A stretch of DNA of 64,000 nt from Protonemura montana (lineage: Eukaryota; Arthropoda; Insecta; Plecoptera; Nemouridae): positions 13,888,001 to 13,952,000 of the forward strand of contig OX387606.1 in NCBI GenBank assembly GCA_947568835.1. Reading direction: 5' to 3'. The translations under genes were made by a program, and so were the position numbers. This document shows positions 61,201 to 64,000 of this stretch, piece by piece (within the stretch, counting starts at the first letter, position 1; each line of letters opens with the position of its first letter). The notes beneath the pieces are model-generated. The model was not told the DNA's origin, made no database searches, and worked only from the letters and a program-made list of their open reading frames with translations.

Positions 61201-64000
61201 AGTATTTGATGTTTTTCTCTTGAAGGTAAGTTTTTTCTTTGAATGTTTTCCATGCATGTTATTTTATTGTTAACACATAGTTAGTCCACTTTCCAAGATG
61301 TTATTGATCTGACTCTTTTTACTTTATGTCACTTCACAACATGACTAGGTTTAGTGAAAGATCTCACATACTTTTGTTTAACACATGTGTTGCCATGTAT
61401 AGCTTCCACATTTATTACAAATTCATATAAACCTTCCCTCTCATTAAAAATAAAAAAACAAACAGATCAAGCTCCCTAAACTTAGATCTCATACCACAGA
61501 GCTCCCTGCCGCAGCTTTATGCTGACCTGCAGCTGGAAGTAAGTTCCACATGGTCGGCGTTCTACCGTGCTGGTGACTGCGAGTCAAGTTTCCCAGTACA
61601 CGCTGCTCGCAAGCTAACGCCGTTCCAGCAAGTGCTGGCCGTGCAAGCGCTGAGACCTGACAGACTGCACTCGGCACTCACCAAGTTCTCCATGCAGGCA
61701 CTCGGTACAATGAGCCCAGAGCTCGAACTGATAATCTATTTGATGAAAGACCATGTGAAATGACACAGGTTTTGAGCAAAATGCTAAAAAAAAATGTCTT
61801 AAAAACAGTGGAAAGGTACATCTGTGAAGCACAATATCTCGAGTTTTCAGAATTAAGGAGTGCACCTTGACCAAACAAAACTCCTCCCATTTACAGAAGG
61901 TAGTGCAGTCTTGATCAAGTGGGAGTTTCTGAAAATGATCACTTATGGGTTCCAATATCAAACGTAAAGGGTTTGCTTAGTAATTAAAGCCAGTCACAAA
62001 TATAAGATTTTGATATCCTAACGTTTGTTTTCTGGCTTGGCAGGTTTGCAAGATATATCACCATCGGCACTAAGCTTAAAGAAGCTGCTGAACGAAACGA
62101 TGGCATCAGAGCCAATCTTGCTAGTCATATCTCCAGGAGCCGACCCCTCCGAAGAAGTCAGAGCGCTTGCGGAAACCGTGGTGGGGAATCAGAACTACCA
62201 TGAAGTGAGTTCTTACCTAGATGTATTGACCATTTCTTGGTTTCTTGTCACCATTGAAACTTGATAGAGTTAATTAACTATCACATACAATTATCATGCT
62301 CAAATATGAATTCTCGTTGTAATAAACTAGGGCTTTGCAACGAAATCTGAGCTGCGTTGTAGATGAGCATAGTTTATTTTATTATTAACAACACTATAAC
62401 CGTCTCAAAAATTGATGCCCAAACGCGGACTCGAACCCCGATCTCCACCTTTCGCGGGTGTTGCTCTGAACCATTAAGCTATCTGGACACTGACTTTTTG
62501 AGACGATTTTAGTGTATTTGATGAGAATGACAGTTCTCCAAGGAGTAGTCCACCGTCAATTCGTCAGTTCTCCAACGTCAATTTGGAGTTATTCGAGTTT
62601 GACAGGTTGCGACGTGATATAGCGTCACTAGAATCAGAGTGACTGTGAGTATTCACAGCCTCATGGTTCTACTCCTTGGAGAACTATCATTCTCATCAAA
62701 TACACTAAAATCGTCTCAAAAAGCCAGTGTCCAGATAGCTCAATGGTTCAGAACAACACCCGCCAAAGGTGGAGATCGGGGTTCGAGTCCGCGTTTGGGC
62801 ATCTATTTTTGAGACGGTTATAGTGTTGTTAATAATAAAATACCCCGTGCATTGCAAGCGTTTGCAATTTAAATAAGAGTTCATCCTAATAGTTTATTTT
62901 ATTCTTTAATCCTTTATTTTTTGTTGGAAAGAGGTATCACACATCCTTCTTTGTGTGTTATCTATTCAATGCATTTTTGTTTTAATTTCGGAAAACCGTT
63001 GTCATGGAAATTGTCATTGAACTACGAAAAGGGTGTATAAAATCTAAACATCATTTCTGCAAATTTCAACAACAATGTTTCTGTACTTTTTAAACTCTGA
63101 AAAGTTCATTTAGAAAACATGAACATGAACATTTTCTGTAAATTTTCAATAGTTGTACAACATGTGAAATTGAAGATTTTGCTTCGCTCGCTACGCTCAT
63201 CAATTAAGCTCACAAAATCATCAAACGTAGAACAGATAAGATTGGCGATTTTAATAGCAAATAAATGAAAGAACAAGGAAGTAAAGAAAAGAAAGAAAGT
63301 AAACCCACGTTTGTGTTTGCCTCACAGGTAGCAATGGGCCAGGGCCAGGTGTCTGTAGCTCTGGAATGCTTAGCGTTGGCAGCCAAGCAAGGTCACTGGC
63401 TGTGCCTCAAGAACCTGCACCTCATGACCTACTGGCTGCCTGCACTTGAAGTGGAGCTCTCAACGCTCACACCACACGAGGACTTCCGACTCTGGTTCAC
63501 AGCCGAAGCACATCCGCGGTTCTCGCCAATTTTGGCTCAGTCGTGTCTCAAGGTCACATACGAGGTGAGTTATTTTGCTTGGTGCTTTTTGGAGAACCTC
63601 AGTTTCAACTTTCAATCTAATAGGCCATCGTATTCTTAGGTTAAAAACATTTCTTTTGTACCTACACTGTCTCCTATAGCAATATATCTTTTAGGTTGTT
63701 AAGAACTTAAGGAAAAAGATTAGAGGATATCTTCTTATGAAAGCAGAGAGTTAAACAGAAACTGTTGTTTAAGTTCCAAGTTTGGCATGGGAACCCATTT
63801 TTGCTCCGTCTTGTTTATCAGGCTCCTCAAGGAGTGAAGAAAAATCTGCTTCGAACGTACGCTGCTTGGGGCCCGGAACACGTGACACGCGAGGGGGGCG
63901 TGCTGAAGGCTCAGGCATTGTTTGCGCTCGCCTGGTTCCATGCCGTCGTGCAGGAACGACGCACGTACATTCCGCAGGGATGGGCCAAGTTCTACGAGTT
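30637..64000 (+). CDS. DYNC2H1: DYNC2H1, cytoplasmic dynein-2 heavy chain (3'-truncated by window)
   Basis: The motor of retrograde intraflagellar transport in cilia. I rebuilt 57 exons from the ATG at 30637 to the window edge: 11630 coding bases, 3876 complete codons, with phase kept at all 56 junctions. Human DYNC2H1 is about 4307 aa, so about 430 residues (end of AAA6 and the C-terminal domain) lie to the right. The N-terminus ([36 protein letters not shown] [15 protein letters not shown]) and every later block follow human dynein-2, not axonemal dyneins or dynein-1. Exons of each part are given in the part entries. Two introns start with GC instead of GT. The intron between the exons for the microtubule-binding domain is 1.9 kb and carries a hAT-like insertion. 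No frameshift or in-frame stop was met, so the gene looks functional. Confidence 0.93.
40252..40281. repeat. 30-base poly(T) tract
   Basis: An uninterrupted run of T about 30 bases upstream of the acceptor of DYNC2H1 exon 20. The exact length may be a sequencing estimate. Confidence 0.7.
41335..41585. repeat. diverged copy of the 24866-type fold-back element
   Basis: In DYNC2H1 intron 21. It shares ordered blocks with 24866-25285: AATATCGATACATGTATATC, a GTTGAGGTTAGCATTAA segment, AACGGTGACTCCACCTA, and a right part with GGCAGCAATTTT and ATTTAATATTAGC. Boundaries are approximate. Confidence 0.45.
41712..41734. repeat. 23-base poly(C) tract
   Basis: A run of 23 C, then T and CCCC, in DYNC2H1 intron 21. 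It makes the local six-frame translation rich in Pro and Gly, which explains the ORFs seen there. Confidence 0.75.
42109..42283 (+). other. GC-AG intron in DYNC2H1 (intron 22)
   Basis: The coding frame runs to CAAGTTGAG and the intron then begins GCAAGT, a strong GC-type donor apart from the C. The acceptor TTCCTGCAG precedes GAATGGCTGAGC (EWLSSL), which aligns directly with the family. No GT donor nearby keeps the frame. Confidence 0.75.
44220..46249 (+). other. DYNC2H1: DYNC2H1 AAA1 module and AAA2 P-loop, exons 26-29
   Basis: Exons: 44220-44339, 44675-44857, 45271-45494, 45802-46249 (residues 1669-1993). AAA1 is the main ATPase site. Walker A GPAGTGKT at residues 1680-1687, Walker B CFDEFN (D1732, E1733), sensor-I region [15 protein letters not shown] and arginine-containing [12 protein letters not shown] are all intact. 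The AAA2 Walker A GPSGSGKT (1978-1985) closes exon 29. All catalytic residues expected for an active motor are present. Confidence 0.9.
44367..44495. mobile_element. diverged short copy of tRNA-like fold-back family
   Basis: In DYNC2H1 intron 26. Left arm TTATTAGGAACACTTATAAC, right arm TTTTTAGTGTTCCTAATAAT; between them only a remnant (CTGTTTGGGCACC) of the tRNA 3' end. The family tail follows (AATACTTTGCCGATTGCAAG). GAAAGTCC upstream and GAAAGTTCC downstream may be a worn target duplication. Confidence 0.5.
46623..48704 (+). other. DYNC2H1: DYNC2H1 AAA2 module, exons 30-33
   Basis: Exons: 46623-46779, 47357-47564, 47788-47894, 48526-48704. AAA2 binds nucleotide structurally. Landmarks: [28 protein letters not shown] block ([23 protein letters not shown]), [34 protein letters not shown] and [13 protein letters not shown]. 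Exon 30 ends at a GC donor. Confidence 0.88.
46780..47356 (+). other. GC-AG intron in DYNC2H1 (intron 30)
   Basis: Exon 30 ends GAGCCCCCAG and the intron begins GCAAGC. The acceptor CTGCAG at 47351-47356 restores phase to give [14 protein letters not shown], as the family requires. Confidence 0.72.
49023..51823 (+). other. DYNC2H1: DYNC2H1 AAA3 module, exons 34-39
   Basis: Exons: 49023-49273, 49751-49856, 49930-50070, 50323-50474, 51201-51613, 51692-51823. AAA3 regulates the cycle. The Walker A GPQGCGKS (residues 2287-2294) is divided by an intron whose phase-2 junction lies inside the final Ser codon. [60 protein letters not shown] and the [16 protein letters not shown] block follow. Confidence 0.88.
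50630..50753. repeat. 124-base hairpin MITE in DYNC2H1 intron 37
   Basis: GGGTAGCGATCATGTAAC ... AGATCCCGCATGTTAT and the complement ATAACATGCGAGATCTC ... TTACATGATCGATACCC form inverted repeats of about 45 bases with few mismatches around a loop of about 35 bases. Non-coding. Confidence 0.65.
52201..53647 (+). other. DYNC2H1: DYNC2H1 AAA4 module, exons 40-43
   Basis: Exons: 52201-52433, 52860-52973, 53055-53163, 53482-53647. The P-loop reads GRAGVGRKS (about residues 2645-2653), with Arg before Lys-Ser; human dynein-2 has a similar Arg-rich form (GRSGVGRRT), so this is family-typical. Then [40 protein letters not shown] and [12 protein letters not shown] match human in order. Confidence 0.87.
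53873..54186. mobile_element. tRNA-like fold-back retroposed element, two inverted modules
   Basis: Flanked by a perfect 13-base direct repeat GCAACAAAGATCT (53860-53872 and 54187-54199). It holds two tRNA-like modules in opposite orientation, 53960-54031 (-) and 54071-54142 (+), separated by about 40 bases. The minus module is the best preserved: D stem GCTC/GAGC and T stem CGGGG/CCCCG pair perfectly around B-box GGTTCGAGTCC. Outside the modules lie the family arms ACTACTACCGTCTCAAAA and complement. One end carries the ATTGCAGACGCTTGC tail block in reverse; the other ends in an A run. In DYNC2H1 intron 43. Confidence 0.75.
54324..57670 (+). other. DYNC2H1: DYNC2H1 stalk and microtubule-binding domain, exons 44-46
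   Basis: Exons: 54324-54534, 54872-55320, 57247-57670 (about residues 2816-3177). Coiled-coil CC1 starts about [19 protein letters not shown] and carries heptads; the microtubule-binding tip contains [26 protein letters not shown] and LAKRGIKEE, then [20 protein letters not shown] begins the return helix CC2. The 1.9-kb intron cuts the binding domain itself and contains the hAT-like element at 55956-57182. Confidence 0.9.
55956..57182. mobile_element. 1.2-kb non-autonomous hAT-like element
   Basis: Perfect 8-base direct repeat CTCATATG at 55948-55955 and 57183-57190, the duplication size of hAT transposons. Terminal inverted repeats of about 21 bases: TAGAGCCAAGATTTTATGGT at the left, complement of TAGAGCCACGATTATATGGT at the right. 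Subterminal zones on both sides are rich in GATTTCG / TTTCGCG / GGTGTTATG words, as in transposase-binding arrays. No transposase ORF; the interior is AT-rich. It accounts for most of DYNC2H1 intron 45. Confidence 0.82.
58310..58350. repeat. 5' fragment of tRNA-like fold-back family
   Basis: ATTATTTTGAACATTACTAC followed by CCTCTAAAAAATTGATG matches the outer arm of the fold-back family; the rest of the element is missing. In DYNC2H1 intron 47. Confidence 0.4.
62384..62888. mobile_element. 505-base tRNA-like fold-back retroposed element with spacer
   Basis: Flanked by a perfect 15-base direct repeat ATAGTTTATTTTATT (62369-62383 and 62889-62903). Two tRNA-like modules lie inverted, 62417-62488 (-) and 62729-62800 (+), inside arms that are inverted copies extending to GATGAGAATGA/TCATTCTCATC. 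The central spacer of about 140 bases has its own short inverted blocks (TTCTCCAAGGAGTA and complement). The right end carries the family tail ATTGCAAGCGTTTGCAAT and TTAAATAAGAGTTCATCC. In both modules acceptor arms GTCCAGA and TTTGGGC pair, with B-box GGTTCGAGTCC; the anticodon-like loop has G at position 33. In DYNC2H1 intron 55. Confidence 0.78.

Follow-up and report, generated by a model that had tools for sequence, protein, structure and literature searches.

A non-autonomous tRNA-module retroelement of Protonemura montana that probably inserts by a Penelope-type mechanism

Introduction

Short interspersed elements (SINEs) are described as dependent on long interspersed elements (LINEs). 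Here we analyse an element at positions 62384-62888 of a 64,000-nucleotide stretch of the Protonemura montana genome (contig OX387606.1, positions 13,888,001 to 13,952,000, forward strand; the whole stretch is called the window), which an initial annotation had read as a LINE-driven, fold-back retroposon with tRNA-like modules. We find that it belongs to a large dispersed family with a 331-bp unit, and we propose that this is a non-autonomous, SINE-like retroelement that probably inserts by a Penelope-type mechanism, most likely using the enzyme of a Penelope-like element (PLE) resident in the same genome.

Published Penelope insertions, as presented in the parts of PMC3846280 and PMC11167929 available to us, show the same plan as the element here. 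The rotifer Pen2a_Av has an inverted 5′ piece that is shorter by 37 bp, roughly the length of a tail, an optional 31-bp tail and a 9-bp duplication (PMC3846280), and for the anole PAc both target strands were extended in vitro (PMC11167929). Like Pen2a_Av and PAc, the element has a 5′-truncated head-to-tail copy, an inverted piece on the 5′ side that falls short by roughly a tail, a short target duplication and two internal candidate start sites of reverse transcription; unlike Penelope, it has no reverse transcriptase (RT), no endonuclease and no detected hammerhead, and it carries a tRNA-like module. Taken as a whole, its sequence is also not significantly like that of the resident PLE. Excerpts of the same literature report non-autonomous Penelope elements in butterflies (PMC6685494) and a host gene moved by a rotifer Penelope (PMC3846280).

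A short non-coding head-to-tail unit, a strongly folded RNA and target duplications are shared with the metazoan retrozymes that lack long terminal repeats (LTRs), as far as these are described in the portions of PMC7229834 and PMC7761336 at hand. In those accounts a type I hammerhead is part of the retrozyme, production of circular RNA has been demonstrated, and PLEs are proposed as the likely partners that move animal retrozymes; in the element, by contrast, we found no hammerhead, and its DNA junctions fit either a circle or a multimer. With tRNA-derived SINEs (SINE2) the element shares a tRNA-like module with RNA polymerase III (Pol III) box sequences, a short length, dispersal and target duplications. 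Unlike in SINE2, the tRNA module is internal (about position 170) and not at the head, there is no poly-A or simple-repeat end, no LINE partner was found by the tail, and fold-back and head-to-tail forms are frequent. The terminal-repeat retrotransposons in miniature (TRIMs) Helenus and Ajax resemble it in having a small-RNA module, in being non-autonomous and in depending on a class other than LINEs, but they have LTRs and depend on LTR retrotransposons, and Ajax duplications are 5 bp (PMC10886601, in the part seen by us). A search of the open-licence PMC literature, with subscription journals and Repbase outside it, returned no PLE-dependent tRNA-SINE, and a paper search with strings of the element returned no paper.

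Results

The window copy folds back as the initial annotation had described, with inverted arms of 174 nt at 62375-62548 and 62669-62842 that differ by 6 mismatches. A central spacer is present, although it measures 120 nt between the arms and not 140. The 15-bp duplication, ATAGTTTATTTTATT, proved perfect at 62369-62383 and 62889-62903, the sole identical 15-mer pair at a spacing of 505-535 in the 64-kb window. Both tRNA-like modules likewise stood up, being called by ARAGORN and reaching Rfam tRNA scores of 43.3 bits (62416-62488, minus strand) and 35.9 bits (62729-62801, plus strand) against a gathering score of 29; the nominal isotypes given by ARAGORN differ between the two.

The arms are, however, unequal. 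On the right lies a direct copy of unit positions 14 to 331 (62571-62888, plus strand), that is, the unit without its first 13 nt and with a 46-nt tail (62843-62888, plus strand) that ends in CATCCTA and lies between the two proposed start sites of reverse transcription. The left arm, which is inverted (minus strand), holds only part of the unit (positions 285 to 112) and has no tail; it shares 9 nt with the left duplication and is separated from the direct copy by a 22-nt filler (62549-62570). The A-rich site AATAATAAAATA (62831-62842, plus strand; unit about 274-285), whose inverted counterpart is the left outer end, is the proposed first start site.

A genome search with the 505-base element, which the initial annotation had suggested, showed it to be one member of a dispersed family. 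In this search of the 258-Mb host genome 40 of 3521 first-look candidates were scored, giving the window copy and 39 others, and an exact 21-base stretch of the tail occurs at 3424 places in the genome (reversed control, 0). The unit length of 331 bp was deduced from head-to-tail copies. We studied 66 copies: set A (39 copies selected for a full-length unit), set B (24 copies: 5 from the window and 19 drawn from among the first 100 places of the tail on contig 1) and set C (3 copies found through the tRNA part). L048 is the same as the window copy and was counted once, as W62 in set B, and L015 and L017 have identical flanks, yet both were counted. Left out were L108 (wrong side of the locus), W58 (41 nt only) and L145-L147, three of six tRNA-sampled loci, with no tail end or with 52-bp arrays. 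The 63 distinct tRNA modules are too alike for covariation analysis.

The copies have a common layout: a duplication, an inverted piece, often a 5′-truncated head-to-tail copy, a full unit and the duplication again. An inverted piece was called in 38/66 copies (set A 21/39, set B 16/24, set C 1/3), and its outer end falls at unit 279-291 in 33 of these 38; three others end at 271-275 and two, doubtful, at 2 and 196, while the inner ends are scattered. Calls in L092, L103 and L014 (outer ends 2, 196 and 271) are doubtful, and short inverted pieces in L096, L098 and L102 are visible by eye and were not called by the script. Target duplications of 9-17 bp, most commonly 13, were found in 37/66 copies (set A 23/39, set B 12/24, set C 2/3) at a score of 9 or more, as against 6/396 when right flanks were swapped between copies; the duplication of L009 is doubtful, since it lies wholly within its arm. 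The expectation of generally long duplications was borne out to that extent, 29 copies having none that we detected. Of the 38 copies called inverted, 30 have a single duplication that encloses the composite as a whole. In these 30 the last base of the duplication is mostly T (77%) and so is the one before it (70%), and the three bases in front of the duplication are mostly A (83%), A (63%) and either C or G (77%). In 22 of the 30, the duplication and the inverted piece share 1-12 nt, which is what annealing of the target end to the RNA at that site would produce.

These features bear on three ways of making a fold-back other than by priming from both sides of the target. A DNA transposon, either a miniature inverted-repeat transposable element (MITE) or a fold-back element moved by a transposase, would explain the large hairpin of the window copy, but the length of the duplication varies, the two ends are unlike (one at about 285 of the unit, the other at about 331), some copies have longer arms than others, and there are head-to-tail pieces; its chance is negligible. 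Variable duplications and unlike ends rule out a MITE, in line with the preference of the initial annotation for retroposition, and variable duplications together with fixed outer ends suggest that both target ends were primed on RNA. That the fold-backs formed only once the copies were in place, through nested insertions or an inversion between copies lying near each other, is hard to square with the single duplication around the composite in 30/38 copies and the outer end fixed in 33/38, and we consider it very unlikely even with copies so numerous and arms about as alike within a copy (92.6%) as between copies (90.8%). An arm's own partner was its best match in 4/29 cases; such near-equal likeness says nothing on whether one RNA served both complementary DNAs (cDNAs). 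Finally, self-primed snap-back of one cDNA as the main route predicts a fixed inner junction and a copied tail, and is ruled out because the fixed end is the outer one and lacks the tail. Nor need the fold-back move as a dimeric unit: two target-primed cDNAs joined mid-element would suffice.

The ascription to a LINE fared less well, as the tail is absent from the LINE loci examined and the layout fits a PLE of the same genome. LINE RTs are plentiful in the host, many in long open frames, and the endonuclease-like starts of the open frames read are presumably of Jockey type. Among the 150 matches listed, dense LINE RT clusters lie at C11:0.05-0.93 Mb and C16:27.3-29.5 Mb. In 40 LINE loci (L050-L089), some of which stop short of the 3′ end, we found none that shares the tail, the best match being 16 nt (L072). 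Four screens for the tail behind other upstream sequence, with selected SINE bases forbidden, gave just 28, 22, 17 and 55 places; they take in just 5-14 bases upstream and would miss any partner that agrees with the SINE at the forbidden positions, and a minority of the places were read. The string ACGTT recurs in 4 of the 22 places of one screen, and such recurring strings mean that there could still be a small partner family. The clearest repeated upstream string, AT-rich and present at 6 identical places and 1 near-identical place, belongs in the one copy read (L124) to a variant tandem SINE. The same string is also seen at L111, L114 and four more places, and a tandem copy may itself be a source of new copies.

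The most serious rival is a conventional tRNA-SINE mobilised by a LINE, in which twin priming at the internal A-rich site would be unusually frequent and template jumps or tandem source loci would give the head-to-tail pieces. Besides the abundance of LINE RTs, the 9-17 bp duplications and the 22/30 microhomology overlaps also fit L1-like twin priming as described in the part of PMC2912911 available to us, where 5′-inverted copies are common for L1 (30.9%). According to the same excerpt, inversion is rare in elements moved by L1, namely Alu (one example) and SVA (4/477), against 38/66 here. The absent tail and the few places in the screens also speak against a LINE, as does run-on past unit position 331 into the next unit, which is not expected of a linear monomer. 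We consider this explanation unlikely, though by no means negligible.

The run-on is seen at both ends of the unit. Upstream, 33/66 direct pieces extend beyond unit position 1 into another unit, in a sample of which set A had been picked for full units. The exact unit-to-unit junction 32-mer occurs at 209 places in the genome, and the exact tandem junction is present in 33 of the 60 exact 5′-end places listed on contigs C1-C3. Twenty of the other 27 were judged by eye: in 15, position 1 is preceded by some 14 nt or more of tail, in 4 by a short tail match and in 1 by none; L041 has a plain start near unit position 1. Downstream, 24 of 55 clear tail ends go on with ATA like the next unit (1.4 expected), and 4 agree with the unit over 5 or more further bases (0.08 expected), one of the 4 being an internal junction (L092). 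Continuation past both ends suggests that reverse transcription starts inside an RNA that runs into another unit. The template was probably a circular or a multimeric head-to-tail RNA, either of which would account for both junction types.

The unit RNA is predicted to fold strongly (−100.3 kcal/mol, z −4.1, 0/100 shuffles as good). The tRNA-like module has, in sequence and fold only, the character of a Pol III promoter as in tRNA-SINEs. A run of five T lies just 3′ of it (unit position 249), so Pol III transcripts of either arm might be short and the full unit would need read-through. One copy (L145:343-596) has its 3′ end at unit 254, just past this potential Pol III terminator, and may be a short Pol III transcript that was retrocopied.

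We looked for resident PLEs with a PLE-like RT probe at a cut-off of E up to 1. There are 92 matches in the genome, the best 43% over 155 aa and many in open frames; where a match spans at least 100 aa, LINE loci reach 25-28% against the same probe. Of the first 26 PLE RT matches, 16 are no more than 0.5 Mb away from a contig end, and several of these have nearly the same score; they would represent a subtelomeric set of Penelope RTs or duplicated chromosome ends. One PLE was read, in two pieces only. The C-terminus of its protein carries GVYEVSCECGKVYIGETGR, which we take to be the PLE-type GIY-YIG motif. Against PHROGs the protein has two weak matches of unknown function. The Pfam GIY-YIG search of the genome gave one match, presumably an SLX1-like host gene, and is uninformative on PLEs, as the PLE protein itself has no Pfam match. 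The DNA 3′ of the PLE open reading frame (ORF) contains a hammerhead core pattern and a stretch, at least 44 nt identical and ending in CATCATAA, that is also present before the ORF; this repeat is a pseudo-LTR.

At 7 loci (L019, L025, L033, L036, L099, L118 and L120) a short PLE copy ends at CATCATAA, give or take about 1 nt. A second group of ends lies 49-55 nt earlier: those in L044 and L012, and those of the inverted pieces in L033 and L118. Another stretch of L118 stops 38 nt earlier, and L112 contains an inner fragment. The copies at L033 and L118 are head-to-head, and their inverted piece lacks the tail. Element and PLE thus have a two-end-site plan in common: sites about 50 nt apart, head-to-head pieces and a one-sided tail. 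Nine PLE copies were checked for duplications, and L033 and L118 have 13 bp, L025 12 bp (one mismatch each) and L036 8 bp; none was found in the other 5, three of them without the left flank read.

The 331-bp unit has no significant match to the PLE sequence read, and the ends CATCCTAA and CATCATAA are suggestively alike in the last 8 bases only, a match equalled at 10/1660 PLE positions (the end itself included) and 100/63988 window positions.

Further copies lie in the window at 16988-17196, 24508-24639, 44408-44497 and 53877-54177, with a weak one at 58306-58346; those at 16988, 24508 and 53877 are likewise head-to-head, and two of the four ARAGORN tRNA calls (17085 and 53957) fall inside them. 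Some copies of the family contain 52-bp head-to-tail arrays from part of the tRNA-like module (about unit 172-231), for example L110:912-1329 with 8 repeats, and also L014, L118, L146 and L147; these may be a satellite born from the element. Next to the 62384-62888 element, positions 62043-62204 match DYNC2H1 over their 54 residues (E 3e-10; the Pfam match is below the cut-off). By this match the segment is an exon, the gene being one for a cytoplasmic dynein 2 heavy chain, and the element would sit in an intron of that gene.

Discussion

The Penelope-type mechanism that we favour would proceed as follows. A circular or head-to-tail multimeric RNA would serve as template. As the duplications show, the cut in the target is staggered by about 9-17 bp. 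Both target 3′ ends would then prime on the RNA at two internal sites 46 nt apart, one at about 285 of the unit and the other at about 331; the end positions are observed, and priming is what we infer from them. Two cDNAs of unequal reach, sometimes running round into another unit, would then be joined mid-element to give the fold-back, with a resident PLE as the presumed source of the enzyme. The copies have what a PLE-like insertion should show, namely an upstream head-to-tail partial copy and a tail-less inverted 5′ piece with two end sites. The 331-bp unit itself encodes neither the RT nor the GIY-YIG domain of a PLE and can only be non-autonomous.

Several observations weigh against this proposal. 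Twin priming and duplications of 9-17 bp occur with LINEs too, and no duplication was detected in 29/66 of the tRNA-module copies. The duplications of the short PLE copies score low (8-9) and lack a control of their own. The GIY-YIG motif of the PLE is without profile support (none from Pfam, none from PDB sequences). Over their whole length the SINE and PLE tails are not significantly alike, 6.5% of shuffles scoring as high. Nor did we find in the 331-bp unit the type I hammerhead that each unit of an animal retrozyme carries: there was no Rfam match and no core pattern at ≤1 mismatch, Rfam also missing the hammerhead core pattern of the resident PLE.

A more specific version of the Penelope-type proposal, which we put forward only tentatively, is that a 331-nt circular RNA is made without a known ribozyme and is Penelope-primed at two fixed sites, so that the family would represent a class of PLE-dependent SINEs. 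Circularisation would then perhaps rely on the tRNA-like fold and on tRNA-processing or ligating enzymes.

If the Penelope-type proposal is true, a family at thousands of places with Penelope insertion marks adds a second type of partner for SINEs. Its many short natural insertions would make the little-known Penelope mechanism, with its two start sites, tail and inverted and tandem repeats, readable base by base. The suggestion that Penelope elements move animal retrozymes, made in the part of PMC7761336 available to us, would also become testable in this genome.

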